This document shows, piece by piece, positions 12,618 through 28,542 of a stretch of 42,861 bases of DNA. The position numbers and the translations under genes are program-made. The DNA is taken from contig JALOTE010000007.1 of assembly GCA_025458045.1 (NCBI GenBank), forward strand, positions 1 to 42,861. The letters are read 5' to 3'. The first letter of the stretch is position 1; each line of letters begins with the position of its first letter. A model generated the notes under the pieces. It was not told the origin of the DNA. It searched no databases and was given only the letters and a program-made list of their open reading frames with translations. The stretch comes from Rhizobiaceae bacterium. GTDB taxonomy: Bacteria; Pseudomonadota; Alphaproteobacteria; Rhizobiales; Rhizobiaceae.

Positions 12618-13397
12618 TCACACACCGGCTTGCCGGGTGATCGCCTCAAACACCGCATCCGGCGCTTCCGCATGCAGCATGTGGCCGACGCCATCGAGCA
12701 GCACGCGGCGCGCCGCCGGAAACAGTTCGGCGTGATGGACCGGCAGAATGCGATCCGCCCTGCCCCAGACCAGCGTGACCGGCAGTTGCAACGCCGCGAG
12801 GCGGGCGAGCGGCAAGGTTCCTTGCGTGCCATCCGCTTTCAGGATGAGATCTGCCAATCTTGCCAACGCCGTGGATTGCCCGGGCCGCGCGCGCTCCGCC
12901 GCCATGGCCGCAAGAGCTTCGGGAGGCCATGAAAAGCCCGGCGCACAAAAGGTTCGGAGCGCACCCGCCAGCTCGCCATCACTGGTGGCCGCGCCGAATG
13001 CCCGAAGATCGGTTGCGGCGATTTCCGGTCCGAACCCGCCTGGCGAAAGCAGCGTCAGGCTCGCAACTTTCTCCGGCGCGTTGATTGCCATCAGCGCGGC
13101 AACCGCACCACCGAAGGAATGCCCTGCAAGGTGAAAGGGTTCCGCCGCGGCAAGCGCTTGCAGCACGGCCTCGGCGCAACGCCGTGCATCTTGCGCGCCT
13201 TGCGGCAGCGAAGCGCCGTGGCCGGGCAGATCAAACGCCGTGACGCTTGCTCCCGCTCCGGCCAGTTGCGTCATCAACGGCCGCCATTGCGTGGCTGACC
13301 CGCCGAAGCCGTGCAGCAGCACGATGTGTGGCCCGCCCTCTTCTCCGCCGCCAAGCCGTGCTTGAGGAAGCGTGATGCGGCCAAGCATTTCCGCCAC
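12618..13397 (-). CDS. Alpha/beta-fold hydrolase
   Basis: 259 residues with the fold's landmarks: oxyanion block LLHGFGGSATQWRPL, DLPGHGAS, the nucleophile elbow GHSFGG at about residue 94, and a C-terminal His in LDGVGHMLHAEAP. The catalytic acid is probably the Asp in WGRADRILPV. The family covers esterases, C-C hydrolases and acyltransferase-like proteins; the substrate is unknown. The GTG start at 13395-13397 is only 2 bp after the leuA stop; an in-frame ATG lies at 13386-13388. Close spacing suggests co-transcription with leuA and control by the leu attenuator, which is inferred. Confidence 0.9.
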   Translation of the reverse strand: MAEMLGRITLPQARLGGGEEGGPHIVLLHGFGGSATQWRPLMTQLAGAGASVTAFDLPGHGASLPQGAQDARRCAEAVLQALAAAEPFHLAGHSFGGAVAALMAINAPEKVASLTLLSPGGFGPEIAATDLRAFGAATSDGELAGALRTFCAPGFSWPPEALAAMAAERARPGQSTALARLADLILKADGTQGTLPLARLAALQLPVTLVWGRADRILPVHHAELFPAARRVLLDGVGHMLHAEAPDAVFEAITRQAGV

Positions 13398-13399
13398 GA

Positions 13400-15151
13400 T
13401 CAGCCGATCCGCACGCCCGGCATGCGGTTGACGGCAGACACGATCGCCTCCAGCGACGCCGTCACGATGTTGGTGTTGATCGCCGCGCCCAAAACCGTGG
13501 CGCCTGCCCCATGCTCCAGTTCCATGTAGCAGATCGCCGCCGCATTGGAGCCGTGCTGGAGCGAGTGCTCCGAGTAATCCGCGACCGAAAACGGCACGCC
13601 GACATGGGCCGACAGGGCATCGACGAACCCGTCGATCGGGCCGGTGCCGCGGCCCTTCATCGTCACGGCGCGCCCGCGATCCAACATATGCGCCTCGACA
13701 ATGCGCGCGCCGGGCCGCTCCGGGTCAGGCACCGAGTGATGGTCAATGAAGGTCAGGCGTGGCTGCGGCTGGTTGACATAGGTCTCGATGAACAGCTCAT
13801 GGATGCGTTTCGAGACAAGCTCGCGCCCTTCGGTGTCCGTCACCTGCTGCACGACCTTTGAGAAGGCGACCTGCCAGTTGCGCGGCAGGTTGATGCCGTA
13901 ATCCGCCTGAAGGATGTAGGCGATGCCTCCTTTGCCGGATTGCGAGTTGATGCGGATGATCGCCTCATAGGTGCGGCCGACATCTTCCGGGTCGATCGGC
14001 AGATAGGGCACTTCCCAATGCGGCGTGTTGGCCACCGCGCGCGCCTTCATGCCCTTGTTGATGGCATCCTGATGCGAACCGGAGAAGGCGGTGTAAACGA
14101 GTTCACCCACATAAGGGTGGCGCTCCGGCACTTTTAACTGGTTGCAATGCTCAAACACGTCGCGGATGCGCGGCAAGTCGGAGCAATCGAGCTTCGGGTC
14201 GATGCCCTGCGTGTACATGTTCAGCGCCAGCGTCACGATATCGACATTGCCCGTGCGCTCGCCATTTCCGAGGAGCGTGCCCTCGACACGGTCGGCACCG
14301 GCGAGCAAGCCCAGTTCGGTGGCGGCAATGCCGGTGCCGCGGTCATTGTGCGGATGCAGCGAGATCAGCACGCAATCGCGCTTGTCGAGGTTGCGGCTCA
14401 TCCACTCGATCTGGTCGGCATGGATGTTCGGCGTCGACATCTCCACCGTGGCGGGGAGGTTGAGGATCAGCCTGTTGTCGGGCGTCGGCTGGATGATCTC
14501 GGTTACGGCGTTGCAGATTTCGAGCGCGACTTCGAGTTCCGTCCCGGTGAAGCTCTCGGGCGAGTACTCGAAGCGGTATCCGCCGCCCGCTTTCGCCGCC
14601 ATGTCGGCGATCAGCTTGGCGGCATCCGTCGCGATCTGCTTGATGCCTTTCACATCGCGCTGGAACACCACACGGCGCTGCAATTCCGAGGTTGAATTGT
14701 AGAAATGCACGATGGGGTTCTTCGCGCCTTCCAACGCTTCGAAGGTGCGTGTGATGAGTTCGGGACGGCACTGGACAAGCACTTGCAGCGATACATCGTC
14801 CGGCACGCCGCCCTGCTCCACGCACCAGCGCGCGAAGTCGAAATCCGTCTGCGAGGCGGACGGAAAACCGATCTCGATCTCCTTGAAACCCATGTCCAGC
14901 AACAGGCGGAACATGCGCTCCTTGCGCTCCTGGCCCATCGGGTCGATCAGCGCCTGATTGCCGTCCCGCAGATCCACCGAACACCAGATCGGCGGCGCGG
15001 TGATGGTCTTTGACGGCCACGTCCGGTCAGGCAAGGAGACAGGCTTGTAGGGTTGATACTTTGCCGGGGCGTCAGGCATGCCGGCGGATGCGGCGGCGGG
15101 AATGCGATGGAGTGTCATCAGTGTGCTCGCTTGGCTGGCCGTCAGCGACAT
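13400..15151 (-). CDS. leuA: 2-isopropylmalate synthase
   Basis: First committed enzyme of leucine synthesis: condenses 2-ketoisovalerate with acetyl-CoA. Length 583 residues, the longer LeuA form with a C-terminal allosteric (leucine-binding) domain after the TIM barrel. Motifs: CSVDLRDGNQALIDPM (catalytic Arg-Asp), FKEIEIGFPSASQTDFDF, the metal-binding HPHNDRGTG and LLGNGERTGNVDI. ATG at 15149-15151 gives the longest form; an in-frame ATG at 15116-15118 has a better purine-rich site (AAGCGAG), so the first 11 residues are doubtful. It is preceded by a Leu-rich leader peptide and hairpin (15192-15354), which indicates transcription attenuation by leucyl-tRNA supply. Confidence 0.95.
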   Translation of the reverse strand: MSLTASQASTLMTLHRIPAAASAGMPDAPAKYQPYKPVSLPDRTWPSKTITAPPIWCSVDLRDGNQALIDPMGQERKERMFRLLLDMGFKEIEIGFPSASQTDFDFARWCVEQGGVPDDVSLQVLVQCRPELITRTFEALEGAKNPIVHFYNSTSELQRRVVFQRDVKGIKQIATDAAKLIADMAAKAGGGYRFEYSPESFTGTELEVALEICNAVTEIIQPTPDNRLILNLPATVEMSTPNIHADQIEWMSRNLDKRDCVLISLHPHNDRGTGIAATELGLLAGADRVEGTLLGNGERTGNVDIVTLALNMYTQGIDPKLDCSDLPRIRDVFEHCNQLKVPERHPYVGELVYTAFSGSHQDAINKGMKARAVANTPHWEVPYLPIDPEDVGRTYEAIIRINSQSGKGGIAYILQADYGINLPRNWQVAFSKVVQQVTDTEGRELVSKRIHELFIETYVNQPQPRLTFIDHHSVPDPERPGARIVEAHMLDRGRAVTMKGRGTGPIDGFVDALSAHVGVPFSVADYSEHSLQHGSNAAAICYMELEHGAGATVLGAAINTNIVTASLEAIVSAVNRMPGVRIG

Positions 15152-15191
15152 CCGGTCGCGCGGCTCATGCGGGGAATGATCGGGTTTGTAA

Positions 15192-15241
15192 AGAGAGCGG
15201 GCGAGCCGAGTTGCGGCCCCTCCGGCCGCCGGGCGCTCTCT
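15192..15241 (-). terminator. leu attenuator hairpin
   Basis: Between the leader stop and leuA the transcript can form an outer 8-bp stem (AGAGAGCG with CGCTCTCT) enclosing an inner 6-bp GC stem (GCGGCC/GGCCGC around CCTCC on the plus strand). The 3' side runs straight into CTCTCTTTACAAA, weakly U-rich. Position and shape fit the terminator of an attenuator. I did not find an equally clear antiterminator by eye, so the switching mechanism is inferred. Confidence 0.6.
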
Positions 15242-15246
15242 GAAGA

Positions 15247-15354
15247 TCAGACCCGGCGACCGCCCCTAAGCGCAAGCGCGAGCAGCGGCAGCAGGGCTGC
15301 GGCGGCGATGGGGGCGCGGGCGGAAAGCATGGACATGCACACGAGATTAGTCAT
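15247..15354 (-). CDS. leuL: leu operon leader peptide
   Basis: A 35-codon reading frame ending 95 bp before leuA. It starts MTNLVCMSML, is Ala-rich in the middle, then reads LLPLLALAL (codons CTG CTG CCG CTG CTC GCG CTT GCG CTT) shortly before the stop: six Leu in nine codons, just ahead of a large hairpin. This is the expected form of a leucine attenuator: ribosome stalling at Leu codons when charged tRNA-Leu is scarce would prevent the terminator. Attenuation of leuA has been predicted for rhizobial genomes by comparative work. Three in-frame ATGs (15352-15354, 15334-15336, 15328-15330) are possible; none has a strong ribosome site. Confidence 0.75.
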   Translation of the reverse strand: MTNLVCMSMLSARAPIAAAALLPLLALALRGGRRV

Positions 15355-15398
15355 GTGCGAGGAGCTTGGCAATCTCAAATGCATTTGAACTCATGTTT

Positions 15399-15677
15399 CC
15401 CTTCGTGCTTCGAGGCTCGCTTCCGCTCGCACCTCAGCACGAAGGGAAATCAGGTGCTCCCGTTCCCTTCGTGCTGAGGTGCGACCCCGGACTTGATCCG
15501 AGGAAGCCTCGAAGCACGAAGGGAAATCAGGTGCTCCCGTTCCCTTCGTGCTGAGGTGCGACCCCGGACTTGATCCGAGGAAGCCTCGAAGCATGAAGGG
15601 AAATCAGGTGCTCCCGTTCCCTTCATGCTGAGGTGCGACCCCGGACTTGATCCGGGGAAGCCTCGAAGCACGAAGGG
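15399..15677. repeat. Tandem array of four palindromic intergenic repeats
   Basis: Four elements lie at 15399-15446, 15465-15523, 15542-15600 and 15619-15677, each bounded by CCCTTCGTGC-type and GCACGAAGGG-type arms and separated by the same 18-bp spacer (AAATCAGGTGCTCCCGTT). The last three are 59 bp long with a constant 77-bp period; the first is shorter, with a different interior. Units 2-4 contain an inner palindrome, ACCCCGGACTTGATCCGGGG in unit 4. Related arms recur at 37926 and 42296, so this is a dispersed family of small palindromes of the kind known in Rhizobiales. It lies between trkH (3' end) and the leu leader. Apparent reading frames inside it are repeat artefacts. Confidence 0.93.
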
Positions 15678-20617: not shown

Positions 20618-21529
20618 TTAGACGTCAGCCATCGGGCCATGCGCCACGCACTCGACAATCATAGCCGCGATCAGGTCCGGGTCGGTCTCATGGACGAGAT
20701 GGCCGCCAAGCGCGACCGGCGTGAAATGGCCGTTGGCCAGACGCTGAGCCGCCTCACGCGAGACGCGGGCCGGCACAAAGGAATCATCTTCGGCGGCGAT
20801 CAGCGTGACCGGCGCTGCAATCATCGGCATCGCATCCTGCAAGGGCTGCAAATCCCAATTGGCCATCATGGCCAGCGCGCCACGTACATGGGCCGGATCT
20901 TCCAGCAGTTTCTGGTAACGGGCCATTTGGGCTTCATCGAGCACGGAGCCCGTCGCCCGCATCAGGATGCGCGTCATGCCGCCGAAGCGTGCCCGCCAGG
21001 CAAACATTTGCGGTGTCAGCGGGTTGAGGAACAGCCCCTTGGCGAGTGGCGACAGAAAAGCGTGGCCGCGCATGGGTTCAAGCGCGGCATTCAACGTGAT
21101 GACACGGCTGAGCAGACCGGGTCGCGTCCGGGCGATGTCGAGCAGGATCGCTCCGCCCGCGGAATGGCCGATGCCGAGCGCGCCATCAAGGCCGAGCGCG
21201 TCGAATACGGCCGCCGCAACAGTTGCCATATTGGGCAAAGTCGGTTGAAACCCGGCCGGCGGTTCCGTGTAGCCATGGCCGGGCAAATCGATCAGCGTGA
21301 AGTGGAAGCGGCCCGGCTGAAGCCGTTCCAGCACGTCGCACAAGGCGGCAAATGAATGGGTGGACGCCGCAGTGCCATGGACCAGCACGACAGGTTCGCC
21401 GTCCGCCGCGCCAAAGCGCTGCACGTGCACGCGCATCCCGCCTGCCTCCACAAGCGTGCTGTGCGCGCTGTTTGGCCAATCGTCAGCCATCAGGCGCGAA
21501 TTCAGCCTTTGCATGTGCCAATCCGTCAT
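20618..21529 (-). CDS. bchO: Magnesium-chelatase accessory alpha/beta hydrolase BchO
   Basis: 303-residue alpha/beta hydrolase matching BchO, the protein encoded with bchI and bchD in purple bacteria. The family's N-terminal block DDWPNSAHSTLVEAGGMRVH is present, then LLVHGT-like VVLVHGTAASTHSF, DLPGHGYTEPP, the nucleophile elbow GHSAGG at residues 121-126 and a late His in ALGGHLVHE. Its reaction is not established; a supporting role in Mg insertion into protoporphyrin IX is assumed from gene linkage. The ATG at 21527-21529 overlaps the bchD stop by 4 bp, indicating coupled translation. It is the last gene of the bchIDO operon. It is clearly distinct from the generic hydrolase at 12618, which lacks the DDWPN block. 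Confidence 0.93.
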   Translation of the reverse strand: MTDWHMQRLNSRLMADDWPNSAHSTLVEAGGMRVHVQRFGAADGEPVVLVHGTAASTHSFAALCDVLERLQPGRFHFTLIDLPGHGYTEPPAGFQPTLPNMATVAAAVFDALGLDGALGIGHSAGGAILLDIARTRPGLLSRVITLNAALEPMRGHAFLSPLAKGLFLNPLTPQMFAWRARFGGMTRILMRATGSVLDEAQMARYQKLLEDPAHVRGALAMMANWDLQPLQDAMPMIAAPVTLIAAEDDSFVPARVSREAAQRLANGHFTPVALGGHLVHETDPDLIAAMIVECVAHGPMADV

Positions 21530-23331
21530 CGCCGTTCGCGCCCGGATGTGAGCGCCGTCACCCGTGTCTTCACCAGCGACGACATCGAGCGCGCGGACGC
21601 GTGAGGCAGGGTCACGTAGTCGGCGCGAAGGGCATCGGCAATGGATTGCCCGCGCGTCTGGCCGCGGCGGCCAATGTCGATGAACAGGGATTTGAGTGAC
21701 AGGCTGGCCGCCACGCGCGCCGAAGCCACCGCATCCTCGGTTGCCTTGGCGCGTCCGGGCGCACCATCAAGAGCGATGTTGCCCGAACCGTCCGACAGGA
21801 ACACCATCAGCGGCGTCTGGCCTTTGGCGCGTGCTGCGGCGGCCAGTTCGGTTGCGCGGCGCAGCCCAGCCGCAAGCGGCGTGCCGCCACCGCCGGGCAG
21901 CGCTTCAAGGCAGCGCTTCGCCCTGACCAATGAACGGGTCGGTTGCAGGAGCGTGTCCGCCCCCGGGCCGCGAAAGGAGACGAGGCCCACATGATGGCGC
22001 TCGGCATAGCAATCGGCCAGCAGCAGTTCGATTGCACCCTTGGCTTCGCCCAACCGGTCAAAGGCGGTGGAGCCCGATGCATCGACGGCAAAGATGATCG
22101 CGGTTTCGCGCTTGTCCTGATAATGGCGGTAGCGGAAGTCCGACGTCTTGAGGATGATGCGCCCGGTTTCCGGCAAGCCGTCACGGGCGCGCTGCGCGCG
22201 GCGGATCGCCTGCCAAGGCACGGCTGCGCGCAAGGTCGCGGCGATGTCGGGCCGTGCTTCGGCAAAAGGCGGGCGCTCGAACACGCCGGTCACCCGGCCG
22301 CGCCGGGCGTTCTTGCGTTTTTCGCCGGAGCGCCCATGCGCGCCCGGCAGGCGTGCCGCGGTGGACCCTGCGCGCGCATCCAGCGTGATGCCTGCAATGT
22401 CGGCGGCGGCAACGGCGACATCCATCAGATCCGGCGGCTGGACATCGCGCGGCTCACTCTCATCGCGTTGTCCCGCATCGTCGGCGGAGGGCGGTGGCGG
22501 TGGCGGCGGGGTTTCTCCCGATTGCTCGTCTGCCGGGTGCCGGTCCTGTTCGGTTGCCTCCAGCCCGGCGAGGCGCAGCGCGGTCAGCACGTCGCGCAGG
22601 GTGGCCGACGGGCGACGCTCCAATGCGGCAATCGCCTTGGCCAGTGACACGGTCAGCGTCAGACGGCGCGGCGATTCCTCGCCAACCGCCTTGATCAGGG
22701 TCAGGACCAATGAATCACTGATCGTGACGGCAGCGCAATCGAGCGGGGGTTCCGGCACGATCGCGCTGGTTTCAAGACGGATCGCCGACCATGCGATGTC
22801 ATCGAGACGCAGCGCCATGGCGAGACGTCCGCCAAGGGCCGCGCCGAGACCGATTTCGTCCTCGGCTGCTTCGTCAAGCGCAATGCAGGCGACTTGCGTT
22901 CGCGTGGAATGGCCGGATGCCGTGCTTTCGACAACGCCCGTGTCGAGCGCCTTGCAGAGCGCCGCCGACGCGGTCGCATCGAGCCGTTCGGCTCCCATCA
23001 CCAGCACCGTGCCGCCATCGGCGCGCACGAGAAGTCCACGATCCTCGACCACTTGCCCGCAAGCCAAGGTCGCTTGGAGGTCAATGCCGCCGCACAGCCT
23101 GTCGGATGCAATGTTGGCGGGCATATGGACGACAGGCCGTCCGCCGGACAGGGATTGGAACGCATCCAGCCACAGATCGCGCACCGGGCCGCAACCGCCT
23201 TTCAGGTGGATGCCGCCAAGGCGCGGACCGCAGGCCGCGATCAACCTTGCGGCCAGCAGCGCATCCTGCCAGCGGGCGCGCGGGTCAGGCGCAGCCTGCC
23301 GCCGAGAAGGGGCCTCAGGCGCGGCCGGCAT
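21526..23331 (-). CDS. bchD: Magnesium chelatase subunit D
   Basis: Subunit D forms the AAA+ double-ring platform with BchI that drives Mg2+ insertion into protoporphyrin IX by BchH, the first committed step of bacteriochlorophyll synthesis. The 601-residue protein has a degenerate AAA+ domain (about 1-260, no Walker A), a Pro-rich acidic linker with seven consecutive Pro at 275-281, and a C-terminal integrin-I/VWA domain whose metal site DASGSTA is at 417-423. SDFRYRHYQDKRETAIIFAV leads into that domain, as in the family, and GGGGTPLAAGLRRA follows. Its start overlaps the bchI 3' end by 17 bp and its stop overlaps bchO by 4 bp. It is slightly longer than the roughly 560 residues of Rhodobacter BchD. 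Confidence 0.97.
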   Translation of the reverse strand: MPAAPEAPSRRQAAPDPRARWQDALLAARLIAACGPRLGGIHLKGGCGPVRDLWLDAFQSLSGGRPVVHMPANIASDRLCGGIDLQATLACGQVVEDRGLLVRADGGTVLVMGAERLDATASAALCKALDTGVVESTASGHSTRTQVACIALDEAAEDEIGLGAALGGRLAMALRLDDIAWSAIRLETSAIVPEPPLDCAAVTISDSLVLTLIKAVGEESPRRLTLTVSLAKAIAALERRPSATLRDVLTALRLAGLEATEQDRHPADEQSGETPPPPPPPSADDAGQRDESEPRDVQPPDLMDVAVAAADIAGITLDARAGSTAARLPGAHGRSGEKRKNARRGRVTGVFERPPFAEARPDIAATLRAAVPWQAIRRAQRARDGLPETGRIILKTSDFRYRHYQDKRETAIIFAVDASGSTAFDRLGEAKGAIELLLADCYAERHHVGLVSFRGPGADTLLQPTRSLVRAKRCLEALPGGGGTPLAAGLRRATELAAAARAKGQTPLMVFLSDGSGNIALDGAPGRAKATEDAVASARVAASLSLKSLFIDIGRRGQTRGQSIADALRADYVTLPHASARSMSSLVKTRVTALTSGRERR

Positions 23332-24361
23332 GGCCGTCCGGCGTCGAGGTCACGTCCACCAGCGCGCGCTCCACGCGCGTGGTTGAACCGGTTTCATCCA
23401 GCGGATCTCGCCGCAGGCGGTGGCGCAGCACCATCGGGGCAACCGCGATCACGTCGGCGCGCGTGACATGGGCGCGGCCCTCGAGCGCGGCCTTGGCGCG
23501 CGATGCACGCATCAAGGTCAGTTCGCCGCGCATGCCATCCACGCCCAGCCGCATGCAGAGAACGGCACAGAGTTCGAGCACGTCATCGGGCGTCTCCATG
23601 CCGTCGAGCATGGTGGAGGCTTTCTTCAACCGACGGCGGATCGCATTGGCTTCCTTCTCATAGGCAGCGCAAAAGCCCTGCGGATCGCGCTCGAAGGCTT
23701 CGCGGCGGCGCACCACTTCCATGCGCTCCTTGATGTTGCGCGACGCCGATATATCCACGGCAAGGCCGAACCGGTCGAGGAGTTGCGGTCGCAACTCCCC
23801 CTCCTCCGGGTTGCCGGACCCCACCAGCACAAAGCGCGACGGGTGACGCACGCTCAGACCCTCACGCTCGACGACATTGGTGCCCGACGCCGCCACATCC
23901 AGCAGCAAGTCCACCAGATGGTCTTCCAGCAGGTTGACCTCGTCGATGTAAAGAAAGCCGCGATGCGCACGCGCAAACAGGCCGGGCTCGAACGCCTTCT
24001 CGCCCTTGGTCAGCGCGCGCTCAATGTCGAGCGCGCCGCAGACACGGTCCTCGCTGGCGTTTAGCGGCAAGTCGACAACGGGTGTCGGCATCGGCACGAT
24101 CCTGCCCGGCCTTGCACCCTTGCGCGGCGCCTCGGGCCCGGCTTCGCCCGGCCGGTCCGGATCAAGGTTGAAACGGTCGCCCTCGCGCACACGGATCGGC
24201 GGCAGCAATGCCGCAAGCCCGCGCACCGCAGTTGATTTGCCGGTGCCGCGATCCCCGAAGATAAGGACGCCACCTATCTTCTGGTCCAGCGCGGTCATCA
24301 GCAGCGCCAGTTTCATGTCGTCCTGGCCGACAATCGCCGTGAAGGGAAATGCGAATGCCAT
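23315..24361 (-). CDS. bchI: Magnesium chelatase ATPase subunit I
   Basis: The ATPase motor of Mg-chelatase: 348 residues, AAA+ fold. The start region FPFTAIVGQDDMKLALLM is typical, followed by Walker A GDRGTGKST (36-44), the insert with VVDLPLNASEDRVCG, Walker B GFLYIDEVN (about 135-143), and LVGSGNPEEGELRPQLLDRFG with the sensor and arginine-finger region. First gene of the bchIDO operon, divergent from dxs across a 384-bp region that carries three PpsR-type palindromes. In many purple bacteria bchI is preceded by crtA; here dxs takes the divergent position and crtA is absent. The catalytic subunit gene bchH is outside the window. Confidence 0.98.
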   Translation of the reverse strand: MAFAFPFTAIVGQDDMKLALLMTALDQKIGGVLIFGDRGTGKSTAVRGLAALLPPIRVREGDRFNLDPDRPGEAGPEAPRKGARPGRIVPMPTPVVDLPLNASEDRVCGALDIERALTKGEKAFEPGLFARAHRGFLYIDEVNLLEDHLVDLLLDVAASGTNVVEREGLSVRHPSRFVLVGSGNPEEGELRPQLLDRFGLAVDISASRNIKERMEVVRRREAFERDPQGFCAAYEKEANAIRRRLKKASTMLDGMETPDDVLELCAVLCMRLGVDGMRGELTLMRASRAKAALEGRAHVTRADVIAVAPMVLRHRLRRDPLDETGSTTRVERALVDVTSTPDGHAGRA

Positions 24362-24484
24362 GTCTCAGCCCCGTTGCATCCGCCCCTGTTCCAGCCGGTT
24401 GGCCCGGCGATTGTGAACAGCGACGTCTGGATCCTCTCACCCGAAGTGCGCTCCAGCCGCGGACGCACGGATCGGACATGAATG

Positions 24485-24502
24485 TGTCAATCATTCCAGA
24501 CA
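24485..24502. promoter_or_regulatory. PpsR/CrtJ binding site 1
   Basis: Exact TGT-N12-ACA, and also the extended consensus TGTC-N10-GACA. It lies 124 bp before bchI and 8 bp from site 2. PpsR/CrtJ represses bch, crt and puc genes under oxygen and light by binding such palindromes, often as close pairs. No ppsR gene is in the window. Confidence 0.85.
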
Positions 24503-24510
24503 CCTAATCA

Positions 24511-24528
24511 TGTCATTGTGAACCTACA
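24511..24528. promoter_or_regulatory. PpsR/CrtJ binding site 2
   Basis: Exact TGT-N12-ACA (TGTC...TACA), 8 bp from site 1. The short, fixed spacing of the two palindromes fits cooperative binding by two PpsR/CrtJ dimers, as described at bchC in Rhodobacter. Confidence 0.8.
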
Positions 24529-24669
24529 AGCGCATGATTGCAATGCGAAACTCTAAGGGGTTGCACGGAGCAGCAACTCAACTTTTCTCCCAAGGCATTG
24601 AAAGAATGAAGGAAAAAATTGCGATGAACGCGCCTACGACTATTTTTGCAGTGGGCGACGGCGCTTTGA

Positions 24670-24687
24670 TGTAAAAAAACATTTACA
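24670..24687. promoter_or_regulatory. PpsR/CrtJ binding site 3, before dxs
   Basis: Exact TGT-N12-ACA with symmetric arms TGTAAA...TTTACA, ending 58 bp before the dxs start and abutting a possible -35 box. It would place dxs under the same repressor as bchIDO. The surroundings are AT-rich, so a chance match is somewhat more likely here than for sites 1 and 2. Confidence 0.7.
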
Positions 24688-24688
24688 T

Positions 24689-24717
24689 TTGTAGCTGTCA
24701 TAGCAAAATGGCATAAT
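24689..24717 (+). promoter_or_regulatory. Possible dxs promoter
   Basis: TTGTAG (24689-24694) and CATAAT (24712-24717) are 17 bp apart. The -10 matches consensus at five of six positions, the -35 at three. PpsR site 3 ends one base before the -35, a position suited to repression. Predicted by eye only. Confidence 0.4.
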
Positions 24718-24745
24718 CGGGAAATCCCGCAGGCGGAGGCGTTTC

Positions 24746-26617
24746 ATGATCGGGTCGAAAGCGTCCGGGCGCGATGGCGGCAAACGAGCCGGCGATGGAA
24801 TGGCCGATGAGGACCTGTCGGGCGCAACCCCCCTGCTCGATGGCGTCCATAGCCCTGCCGATTTGCGCCGCATGCCGGATGGCGATTTGGTGCGGCTGGC
24901 CGACGAGCTGCGCCACGAGACGATCCGCGTGGTATCGCAAACCGGCGGGCATCTCGGCTCCAGCCTCGGCGTCGTCGAACTCACCGTCGCCGTGCATGCC
25001 GTGTTTGAAACGCCGGTGGACCGTTTCATCTTCGATGTCGGACACCAGTGCTATCCGCACAAGATCCTGACCGGGCGGCGTGCCCGGATGGGGACGCTTC
25101 GTCAGGAGGGCGGGCTGTCCGGCTTCACCAAGCGCGCGGAAAGCGCCTACGACCCGTTTGGCGCGGCGCATTCCTCAACCTCGATTTCAGCCGGGCTCGG
25201 TTTTGCCGCCGCACGAGACCTCGGCCAGCCGGAAGGCGATGTGATCTGCCTGATCGGCGACAGCGCGCTGTCCTCCGGCATGGCGTTTGAAGCGTTGAAC
25301 AATCTTGGCGCGTTGAGAAAGCGCCTGTTTGTCATCGTCAACGACAATGGAATGTCGATTGCGCCCGCCGTTGGCGCGCTTGAGGCGCATCTGCGCGGGT
25401 TGGCGCGCGGCGACGCCCGGGGCAACCTGTTTGAATCGCTGGGTGCCGCCTATCACGGGCCGGTCGATGGTCATGATCTGCCGGGCCTGCTTGCATTGAT
25501 GCGCCGCCTGCGCACGGAGGCGGACGGTCCAGTCGTGATCCATGCCCTGACAACCAAGGGAAAGGGCTATGGCCCGGCCGAAGCGTCATCCTGCCGCTAT
25601 CACGGCGTCACCCCGTTTGATGCCGGCACGGGTGTGCAGCAAAAGGGATCGGCCAAGGCGCTGACGGCGGTATTTGCCGAAGCTCTGATCGCGGAAGCCA
25701 AGGCGGACCATCGCATCATAGCCGTCACGGCCGGAATGCCAACCGGCACGGGCGTTGACAAATTCGCAGCCGCGTTCCCGGATCGCGCCTTTGACACAGG
25801 GATCGCCGAACAGCATGCCGTGACATTCGCGGCCGGCGCGGCCGCGGGCGGATTGAAGCCATTTTGCGCCATCTATTCGACATTTCTCCAGCGCGGCTAC
25901 GACCAGATCGTGCATGACGTGGCGCTGCAGGGCCTGCCCGTCCGTTTCGCGATCGACCGCGCGGGCCTTGTCGGTGCCGACGGGCCGACCCATGCGGGAA
26001 CGTTCGACATCGGCTTTCTGACAGCCTTGCCGGGTTTCACCGTGATGGCGGCGGCAGATGCCACAGAACTCGCCCATATGGTCGCGACAGCGGCGGCCCA
26101 TGATGGCGGACCGATCGCCTTTCGCTATCCGCGCGCCAGTGCTGGCGGCGAAGCCGTGCCGCAGCGCGGCACTCCGCTTGAAATCGGCAAGGGCCGGATC
26201 GTCCGCACCGGCCACACCCTCGCCTTCCTGTCGCTCGGCGCGCGGCTCGGCGCGGTCACCGAAGCGGCATCCATGCTGGCGCGCCACGGAATCAACCCGA
26301 CGATAGCCGATGCCCGCTTTGCCAAGCCGCTCGACCTCGATTTGATCGAGAAGCTGGCCAACACGCATCAGGTGCTGATCACGGTCGAGGAAGGGGCGGC
26401 CGGCGGCTTCGGTGCGGCGGTCCTCAGCCACCTTGCGCTCGCCGGCTATCTGGACGGGCGGTGCGCGGTGCGCCCGCTCACGCTCCCGGACAGCTTCATT
26501 CACCAAGCCGACATGGAGATCATGTACCGCCATGCGGGCGTTTCGACGGACAGGCTGGTGCGCATGTCGATTGACGCATTGCAGAAAATGACGCGGCCCA
26601 AATTGGTCCGCATGTAA
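24746..26617 (+). CDS. dxs: 1-deoxy-D-xylulose-5-phosphate synthase
   Basis: First enzyme of the MEP isoprenoid pathway: joins pyruvate and glyceraldehyde-3-phosphate with thiamine diphosphate (ThDP), feeding carotenoids and the bacteriochlorophyll tail. At 623 residues it is of normal length. Motifs: [31 protein letters not shown], the cofactor site [16 protein letters not shown] (171-186), [10 protein letters not shown], and [15 protein letters not shown] with the catalytic Glu. The cofactor site reads GDS where ThDP enzymes usually have GDG. The ATG at 24746 follows GGCGGAGG at good spacing. Divergent from bchI with PpsR-type sites between, so probably a photosynthesis-linked copy; a second housekeeping dxs elsewhere is likely but not visible. 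Confidence 0.95.
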
Positions 26618-26733: not shown

Positions 26734-27606
26734 ATGTATCACGAACGACAGACTTGGACGTCGTATGCGCCATCCGGTGCAGCGATGAACCGCCAGAACA
26801 CGCTGGACTTGGGACAGAGCCAACTCGATCAGCGACGTCGGTTTCGGGCACACTTGGCACTCGTCTTGGAGCATCATGTGCCAACGCAGCTGGAACAGAC
26901 CTATCGGGATCTCGGACGTCATCGCCTTCTGAGCGAAACGCCCGGCCGGCGGCCGCTGACGGCTGCGGAAATCGACGAACTGACGGATGCGTTTCTGGTT
27001 TCCGAACCCGGAGCCTTCATCGACGTCTTGGAGCGTCAGGGCCTGTCACGGCTGACATTCGCCGAGTTTTACCGCTGGATCATCCAGCCCGTGTCGCGGG
27101 CTCTGGGCGAAATGTGGTGCGATGACCGCACGGGCTTCCTCGCCGTGTCGATTGCAACCGAACGGCTGCGTCTGGCCGTCGACACGCTGTATCCGGATCT
27201 CGATGTTGTCACCCGCCATGCCACACGCAAGGCGCTGATCACCTGCCACGATGATTCAATGCATAATTTCGGTGCATTCCTGCTCACCAAGGCCTTCCTG
27301 TTTGCCGATTGGCTGGTCGAGACGCGCGATTGGAACGACGCTTCAGGTTCGCCGGTCGGGCTTGTCGCTCGCGCATCCTATGATTTTGTCGGCCTCTCGG
27401 TTGGTGGTTCTGGCACGGCAAAATCGGTCGAGAAAACAATCGCGGCGCTGCGCGCGCGCAGCATCAACCGGAAGCTGGTGATCGGCATCGGCGGGCCCGG
27501 TCCCTCGCTTGACCGTCAGAGCTTCGCCCGATGCGGCGCAGACTTCATTTCGATTGATGCCGTCGATGCGGTCGTGCAGGCCGAAGCGGCCATTCACCAG
27601 GCTTGA
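26734..27606 (+). CDS. B12-binding-domain protein of the AerR/PpaA type
   Basis: 290 residues from the ATG at 26734, which follows GGGAAGGG. Residues 70-160 form a helical cap-like domain with LGEMWCDDRTGFLAVSIATE, resembling the W-rich helix that contacts cobalamin or heme in AerR/PpaA/SCHIC proteins. Residues about 165-290 resemble a Rossmann B12-binding domain: ITCHDDSMHNFGAFLL with His177 as the likely ligand (D-x-x-H-x-x-G, one residue longer than D-x-H-x-x-G), FVGLSVGG, and LVIGIGGPG. AerR and PpaA modulate PpsR/CrtJ. Lying 116 bp after dxs beside PpsR-type sites, it is a candidate light- or redox-responsive partner of PpsR; that role is inferred. Followed by a strong terminator. Confidence 0.8.
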   Translation: MYHERQTWTSYAPSGAAMNRQNTLDLGQSQLDQRRRFRAHLALVLEHHVPTQLEQTYRDLGRHRLLSETPGRRPLTAAEIDELTDAFLVSEPGAFIDVLERQGLSRLTFAEFYRWIIQPVSRALGEMWCDDRTGFLAVSIATERLRLAVDTLYPDLDVVTRHATRKALITCHDDSMHNFGAFLLTKAFLFADWLVETRDWNDASGSPVGLVARASYDFVGLSVGGSGTAKSVEKTIAALRARSINRKLVIGIGGPGPSLDRQSFARCGADFISIDAVDAVVQAEAAIHQA

Positions 27607-27631
27607 TTGACGGCAACCCGGCCATCGCATG

Positions 27632-27663
27632 ACGCGTGAGGCGATGGTCTCGCGCGTTTTTTT
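27632..27663 (+). terminator. Rho-independent terminator after the B12-domain gene
   Basis: A 9-bp stem (ACGCGTGAG / CTCGCGCGT, one G-U pair, 8-base loop) is followed by a run of seven T. It closes the rightward dxs-B12-domain transcription unit. Confidence 0.9.
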
Positions 27664-27888: not shown

Positions 27889-27965
27889 TGGTAGCAGGAG
27901 GCGGAATTGAACCGCCGACCTCGGGGTTATGAATCCCGCGCTCTCACCAACTGAGCTACCCTGCC
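27889..27965 (-). tRNA. tRNA-Met (CAT), elongator type
   Basis: Reading the minus strand, a full cloverleaf folds: acceptor GGCAGGG with TCCTGCT (G-U pairs at both ends), TA, D-arm GCTC...GAGC, anticodon loop TTCATAA with anticodon CAT, T-arm GGCGG-TTCAATT-CCGCC, discriminator A, and encoded CCA (27889-27891). The paired first base G1-U72 argues against initiator tRNA, which has an unpaired first position. tRNA-Ile2 with modified CAT is the alternative, but its body usually differs. The anticodon stem has an A-C mismatch at 31-39. Confidence 0.95.
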
Positions 27966-28266: not shown

Positions 28267-28542
28267 ATGACCGATATGGTTCGCCCGCGGGTGAAATATG
28301 TGATCGGGCCGGATGGCAGCCCGTTGACGATTGCCGATCTGCCGCCGTCCAACACCCGCCGCTGGGTGATCCGCCGGAAAGCCGAAGTGGTGGCCGCGGT
28401 GCGCGGCGGACTGCTCAGCCTCGAGGAAGCCTGCACGCGATACGCGCTGACGGTTGAGGAATTCCTGTCCTGGCAGGCGTCGATCGACGACCATGGCCTT
28501 GCCGGCCTGCGCACAACGCGCATCCAGCACTACCGGCACTAA
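28267..28542 (+). CDS. sciP: SciP, CtrA inhibitory protein (DUF1153)
   Basis: 91-residue DUF1153 protein. Family core: PRVKYVIGPDGSPLTIADLP, then TRRWVIRRKAEVVAAVRGG, LLSLEEACTRYALTVEEFLSW and the end IDDHGLAGLRTTRIQHYR, a helix-turn-helix-like fold. In Caulobacter SciP binds CtrA at its promoters and blocks polymerase recruitment, separating S-phase and G1 gene programmes. It lies 2.3 kb from ctrA, with a CtrA-like site 52 bp before its start. The ribosome site is weak (GAGTTGAG). Nothing in the sequence looks degraded. Confidence 0.93.
   Translation: MTDMVRPRVKYVIGPDGSPLTIADLPPSNTRRWVIRRKAEVVAAVRGGLLSLEEACTRYALTVEEFLSWQASIDDHGLAGLRTTRIQHYRH

Follow-up and report, generated by a model that had tools for sequence, protein, structure and literature searches.

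The gap between bchI and dxs in the 42,861-nt window (the whole stretch of DNA analysed here, contig C163 of a 3.02-Mb assembly of 179 contigs that is 93.8% complete) is probably a PpsR-type divergent switch, with control over bchIDO on one side and over dxs and an aerR-like gene on the other. Palindromes of the PpsR type cluster in this gap, two of them at the distance typical of such operators, and sites of the same kind recur at bchI and at photosynthesis-type dxs genes in relatives. The dxs of the window is the second copy in this genome, and the gene that follows it is antirepressor-like by its sequence and probably belongs to the dxs unit.

Palindromes and promoter-like elements between bchI and dxs

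Positions 24362–24745 are the exact gap between bchI on the minus strand and dxs on the plus strand. Both genes, as well as bchD and bchO, were named via NCBIfam models (Table 1). A first-pass annotation of this DNA had described three exact TGT-N12-ACA palindromes in the gap, the first two of them 8 bp apart, and all three were found where it had placed them. The spacing of sites 1 and 2 fits the PpsR/CrtJ operator criterion of about 8–9 bp between neighbouring palindromes. A degenerate fourth palindrome follows site 3, and the pairs 1–2 and 3–4 are separated by 141 bp. Distant CrtJ sites reportedly cooperate, and looping between the two pairs may, by analogy, occur here. Single TGT-N12-ACA sites number five in the window compared with 4.0 expected. 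The clustering of sites in the gap is above chance, with at least three sites reached in 2 of 50,000 composition-preserving dinucleotide shuffles of the 384-bp region and an 8-bp-spaced pair in 1 of 50,000.

The right half of site 3 is also the −35-like TTTACA of the promoter-like match for dxs, and the −10-like CAAAAT falls within the degenerate site 4. This layout parallels the D. shibae bchF promoter, in which the −10 and −35 regions are each overlaid by one motif according to the available part of the source (PMC10890935). However, the bchF promoter was tested with reporter fusions and mutated sites, whereas the arrangement at dxs is predicted and its −10 site is degenerate. On the bchI side, a speculative promoter-like match runs across sites 2 and 1, and a stricter promoter scan did not report this TTCACA-18-TGGAAT element. 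In Rubrivivax, PpsR binding is redox-dependent at a spacing of 9 bp and not at 8 bp, as stated in the accessible text of PMC4452267, so that oxygen control at this locus does not follow from the spacing by itself. A terminator-like hairpin on the plus strand (24558–24579; 1 found compared with 0.7 expected) is located between both site pairs.

Table 1 Features of the bchI–dxs region and its flanking genes (window coordinates).
Feature	Position	Strand	Sequence or motif	Remarks
bchO, alpha/beta hydrolase	20618–21529	−		TIGR03056, 246.4 bits (cut-off 172.55)
bchD, Mg-chelatase subunit D	21526–23331	−		NCBIfam, 485.5 bits, below curated cut-off of 571
bchI, Mg-chelatase ATPase subunit I	23315–24361	−		TIGR02030, 496.3 bits (cut-off 466.95)
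PpsR-type palindrome 1	24485–24502		TGTCAATCATTCCAGACA	TGTC-N10-GACA; exact motif match
Weak promoter-like element for bchI	24493–24522	−	TTCACA-18-TGGAAT	Across sites 2 and 1; speculative
PpsR-type palindrome 2	24511–24528		TGTCATTGTGAACCTACA	8 bp from site 1; exact motif match
PpsR-type palindrome 3	24670–24687		TGTAAAAAAACATTTACA	TGTAAA-N6-TTTACA; exact motif match
Promoter-like element for dxs	24682–24709	+	TTTACA-16-CAAAAT	Consensus match only; 1 found, 0.3 expected
Degenerate palindrome 4	24696–24713		TGT-N12-GCA	8 bp after site 3
dxs, second DXP synthase, photosynthesis clade	24746–26617	+		NCBIfam model
AerR/PpaA-like B12-binding protein, candidate PpsR antirepressor	26734–27606	+		116 bp after dxs
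Terminator-like hairpin with T run	27631–27658	+		24 bp after aerR-like gene; consensus match only

The second dxs and the B12-binding gene behind it

The genome contains two full dxs genes, a copy on contig C51 that scores 781 bits and the window copy at 675 bits. The former rules out the window dxs as the sole isoprenoid entry of this genome. In a DXS tree of 73 rows, calculated by a quick method, the window copy falls on a long branch (0.89) within a 27-row group with an SH-aLRT value of 100. The same group comprises the puf-linked DXS of R. litoralis, Sulfitobacter and Tateyamaria and the cluster-linked DXS of relatives, together with one DXS labelled housekeeping (L211). The C51 copy groups with the housekeeping DXS, and the DXS of Sinorhizobium meliloti and Shinella nest among the housekeeping DXS of the family, on which basis the family was tentatively taken to be Rhizobiaceae. 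The tree took in five of 11 Comamonadaceae-type loci that are described below, and the R. sphaeroides DXS protein is not among its rows. The window DXS keeps the columns of the catalytic His, Glu, Arg and Asp residues. Its GDG motif reads GDS, at a third position that is Gly in 60 of the 60 compared rows; some thiamine enzymes carry GDS. The window DXS is likely, but not certain, to be active.

The first-pass annotation had predicted that the first isoprenoid step is repressed by oxygen or light along with Mg-chelatase, which would match precursor supply to pigment demand. The sites at dxs stand; however, this dxs is a second copy, and no exact site lies within 350 bp of the housekeeping dxs on C51. 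What survives is a narrower claim, in which the supply under PpsR would be an additional one dedicated to pigment and not the essential one.

The gap between dxs and the aerR-like gene is without a plus-strand promoter-like match or a terminator-like match, and the two genes would form a single transcript. Hairpins of the kind that follows the aerR-like gene are not above chance in number (1 found compared with 1.9 expected in the scanned stretch). A genome search with the cobalamin-dependent protein that adjoins ppsR in R. litoralis yielded one match, which is this gene. The protein scores just over the cut-off of the Pfam B12-binding family (34.1 bits; cut-off 32.1), its best match among solved sequences is AerR 7te2 (E 1.1e-5), and its identity to R. 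litoralis AerR is 24%. The motifs around G125, W128, D131 and H177 are common to this protein and AerR/PpaA, and the conserved H177 aligns with a histidine in AerR. Comparison of the structure model (mean pLDDT of 80) using Foldseek ranked AerR 7te2 first, with an E value of 1e-8 and a TM score of 0.75 by target, and the AppA–PpsR2 complex was also among the matches. A second structure comparison gave a Z score of 20.7 for the best photocobilin and 19.0 for AerR (rmsd of 3.4, 203 aligned), with AppA close behind. The protein thus resembles R. capsulatus AerR (7te2) and D. shibae PpaA in its B12-binding domain, motifs and predicted fold.

With a family profile, an aerR-like gene was located immediately after dxs in eight relatives as well as here. 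The linkage occurs in nine of the ten genomes of the DXS subclade, and the contig of the tenth ends within dxs. In the same eight relatives, an AerR-like gene is additionally found no more than 600 bp from ppsR, an arrangement present in 40 of the 43 phototrophic genomes of the family when AerR-like matches from 71 bits up are counted and rows under 50 bits are left out. The three exceptions are this genome, in which the ppsR–bchF gap is too short for aerR; G257, which yielded no AerR-like match and in which ppsR starts 303 bases from the contig start; and G307, in which the ppsR and AerR-like matches are on different contigs. The available part of PMC10890935 describes aerR/ppaA as always upstream of ppsR and transcriptionally linked to it. 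The gene studied here departs from that published context, and we refer to it as AerR/PpaA-like because it lies behind dxs rather than upstream of ppsR. No other AerR-like gene was found in this genome, although the 93.8% completeness of the assembly leaves slight room for a second aerR elsewhere.

Could the gene behind dxs encode some other light sensor of the cobalamin or photocobilin type, with a target of its own? The identity to AerR is low, photocobilins and CarH share the fold and the best photocobilin obtains the higher Z score. Moreover, eight relatives possess a ppsR-adjoining AerR-like gene, and the dxs-linked copy could have diverged in function. Nonetheless, we regard such a sensor as unlikely, as AerR is both the best match among solved chains and the first-ranked Foldseek match, the AppA–PpsR2 complex is among the matches, and the gene is linked to a photosynthesis-clade dxs in nine genomes and is the only AerR-like gene found in this one. 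The preferred assignment is a candidate PpsR antirepressor.

Further downstream, near a G run, a tRNA-Met(CAT) gene follows on the minus strand (27889–27965), and a DUF1153 protein is encoded at 28267–28542 (141.5 bits), a family that we take to include the CtrA inhibitor SciP.

Palindrome pairs, ppsR and conservation in the family

A motif scan of the whole genome, proposed in the first-pass annotation as a check, favoured regulation where pairs are concerned and not where single sites are. The TGT-N12-ACA motif occurs at 407 places compared with 372 for the reversed pattern, such that single sites are hardly enriched. By contrast, pairs spaced by 8 bp with at most one mismatch occur at five places genome-wide and at one for the reversed pattern, and sites 1–2 are the sole exact 8-bp pair in the 3.02-Mb genome. 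Four of the five precede photosynthesis genes, namely sites 1–2, sites 3–4 and the pairs at bchC and bchE. The fifth, with one mismatch, is located between a thiolase gene and phaR (G000:C17:26461-26504) and is possibly due to chance. Three pairs are spaced by 7 bp (at most one mismatch; none in the reversed control), of which one is exact and precedes crtD, another exact one falls within an open frame of C135, and the third is on C72. The contig that carries puf and bchC (C128) has three exact sites across its 15.7 kb. Two of them constitute the crtD pair; the remaining one, in the bchC promoter, shares its TGTAAA left half with site 3. On the same contig, matches to idi, crtA (265.8 bits, under the cut-off of 300) and 5-aminolevulinate synthase occur after puf at 13009–15597, and no dxs match was found on this contig.

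The absence of ppsR had been named as an observation that would speak against PpsR control; the gene was found on contig C110, adjoining bchG and bchF (TIGR02040, 308.5 bits; cut-off 275.4). The encoded PpsR is 30% identical overall to Roseobacter litoralis PpsR and matches it closely in the C-terminal helix-turn-helix, where SRQSLY and KLR are common to both. Given the pairs found at these genes and the PpsR encoded in the genome, the same operator type marks bchC, bchE, crtD, bchI and dxs.

A sample of 394 genomes of the same family comprises 43, including this one, that have bchI. All 43 have a PpsR match, 42 of them over the cut-off. Of the 42 family relatives, 34 have one or more exact sites no further than 350 bp from bchI, and the other eight have none. 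Over 82 bchI loci, the density is 0.86 sites/kb in the 300 bp upstream compared with 0.19 from bchI onward. A divergent dxs is found upstream of bchI in 19 of the 42 relatives, with the bchI regions of three of the 42 (L140, L175 and L179) ending too near bchI to show dxs. The bchI–dxs gap of six relatives resembles that of the window, being 130–396 bp long with no frame above 88 aa. It extends to 744–1398 bp in 11 of the 17 measured relatives, where it may hold another gene, and to 1.9–2.2 kb in two relatives. Used as a DNA query, the 501-bp region matched two of 40 relatives, in each case only over the first bases of bchI, and a conserved DNA block spanning the region is thereby ruled out. 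Conservation was therefore sought site by site.

An exact site is present within 200 bp upstream of 19 of the 21 photosynthesis-type dxs copies in the family and of one of the 33 housekeeping copies (19 of 22 and one of 32 if L211, counted here as housekeeping, is moved to the photosynthesis group); the rows are related and the counts are not independent trials. L208 (broken frame) and L213 (same gene as L169) were left out of the housekeeping set and L222 (no upstream DNA) was left out of the site counts, while the three puf-linked dxs of the Roseobacter clade stand outside the 21 photosynthesis-type copies. The upstream regions of the 19 hold 24 sites, compared with three in the reversed control and a shuffle mean of 0.57. 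When the distance is extended to 350 bp, sites are found at 19 of the 21 photosynthesis-type and eight of the 33 housekeeping copies, seven of the latter eight being GC-rich and more than 250 bp away. The three housekeeping-clade dxs that lie near bchI all have an exact site within 200 bp. The sole exception among the 33 comes from genus g115, which has a single dxs per genome. Four of the five single-copy dxs of this genus (L209 and L237–L240) have an exact site, and only L209 is in the set of 33. Such single-dxs genomes carry a second AerR-like gene, located ~1 kb upstream of bchI (L143, L148, L150, L151 and L160). Ten plasmid records have bchI at E ≤ 1e-90. The surroundings of dxs were read in three of them, from R. 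litoralis, Sulfitobacter S190 and Tateyamaria, and in each dxs lies behind puf. An exact site occurs within 350 bp of dxs in two of the three, and both of these sites are GC-rich and unconvincing. The PpsR regulation of bchI and dxs proposed in the first-pass annotation is thus partly supported, by the presence of ppsR, by the pairs before bchC, bchE and crtD and by the sites before the photosynthesis-type dxs of relatives.

The TGTAAA-N6-TTTACA form of site 3 is exact in all ten members of the DXS subclade of the window, the window counted. This form raises the alternative that PpsR controls bchIDO alone through sites 1–2 and that the palindrome at dxs is the operator of another regulator. 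The inner sequence of site 3 is indeed distinct, and at the dxs loci L215–L218 it is exactly conserved by itself, with no partner (at most one mismatch) at a distance of 5–10 bp. However, site 3 fits TGT-N12-ACA, its left half recurs in the bchC site of this genome, and in six relatives (G154, G318, G065, G322, G314 and G223) the TGTAAA-type site lies 6–8 bp from a second exact site; the partner is upstream in these relatives, whereas site 4 is downstream of site 3 here. We therefore consider a separate regulator at dxs improbable and retain PpsR for both sides of the gap. That the palindromes are chance or leftover sequence, with bchI and dxs expressed independently of PpsR, is very improbable even for a motif so short and so common genome-wide, since chance clustering is rejected by the shuffles and the genome-wide pair searches and since the photosynthesis-type dxs of relatives contrast with the housekeeping copies.

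Proposed circuit and relation to known systems

In the proposed divergent switch, the pair of sites 1–2 would serve bchIDO, and site 3 together with the degenerate site 4 covers both promoter-like boxes of dxs (−35-like and −10-like). Cooperative binding of PpsR to each pair would deny RNA polymerase access in both directions. Relief from PpsR would turn on Mg-chelatase and a pigment-dedicated DXP synthase together, and more pyruvate and glyceraldehyde 3-phosphate would flow towards the isoprenoids of carotenoids and the pigment tail; the housekeeping dxs would meanwhile run elsewhere. The gene for the probable antirepressor would itself be under PpsR repression, giving a double-negative and thus positive-feedback loop in which the AerR-like protein, presumably with B12, would relieve PpsR and more AerR-like protein would be made. 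We suggest more tentatively, as a possibility that we hold at somewhat less than even, that the only AerR-type antirepressor of this genome left the ppsR operon for a PpsR-repressed operon, which would create a self-reinforcing, possibly bistable switch gated by B12 and light that decides jointly on pigment synthesis and isoprenoid supply. An antirepressor-like gene uncoupled from the repressor would change the logic of the circuit. With sites of one repressor between Mg-chelatase and a dedicated DXS, the coupling of isoprenoid supply to pigment demand is directly testable.

The R. capsulatus CrtJ operators and the sites described here are both TGT-N12-ACA palindromes. The bchC gene of R. capsulatus reportedly has neighbouring CrtJ palindromes, as in sites 1–2, and these are 8 bp apart. 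According to the available part of PMC6199135, AerR is the partner of CrtJ, and crtA-bchIDO of R. capsulatus is transcribed divergently from crtIB, an isoprenoid-pathway unit. The divergent partner here differs, being dxs followed by the aerR-like gene and facing bchI itself. Genes for DXPS in photosynthesis clusters are described downstream of puf in the Roseobacter clade (PMC3176799, PMC6052148) and dxsA of R. sphaeroides is described as a PrrA target (PMC4263372), in each case in the accessible portion of the paper. A cluster-linked DXS is common to the Roseobacter clade and this genome, and three Roseobacter-clade DXS belong to the same tree group as the window copy. However, the Roseobacter-clade dxs is behind puf, whereas the dxs of the window is divergent from bchI, has PpsR-type sites of its own and is followed by the aerR-like gene. 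Cluster-linked DXS is therefore already known, while the PpsR-type sites between bchI and dxs and the dxs–aerR linkage appear to be new; neither PpsR at a bchI–dxs region nor this linkage was found among the open-access titles and abstract starts listed.

Divergent dxs–bchI pairs occur also in Comamonadaceae/Burkholderiales-type MAGs, at 11 of 80 loci in which BchI was found (L026, L027, L028, L034, L036, L039, L040, L050, L051, L066 and L076, one of which is labelled Singulisphaera). At these loci bchI and dxs are 133–135 bp apart, by the start codons chosen here, with TGTCAA...TTGACA-like elements and an exact site in three of the 11. The five Comamonadaceae-type DXS placed in the tree form a separate branch, and for this reason the pairing of dxs and bchI probably arose more than once. 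Within the family, a second PpsR-like gene lies 2–5 kb from the bchI-linked dxs in G146, G353, G282, G336 and G181, and one below the family cut-off lies at the same distance in G250, G303, G192 and G116. In view of these second genes near dxs, the regulator partner of the bchI–dxs locus seems to vary among lineages.
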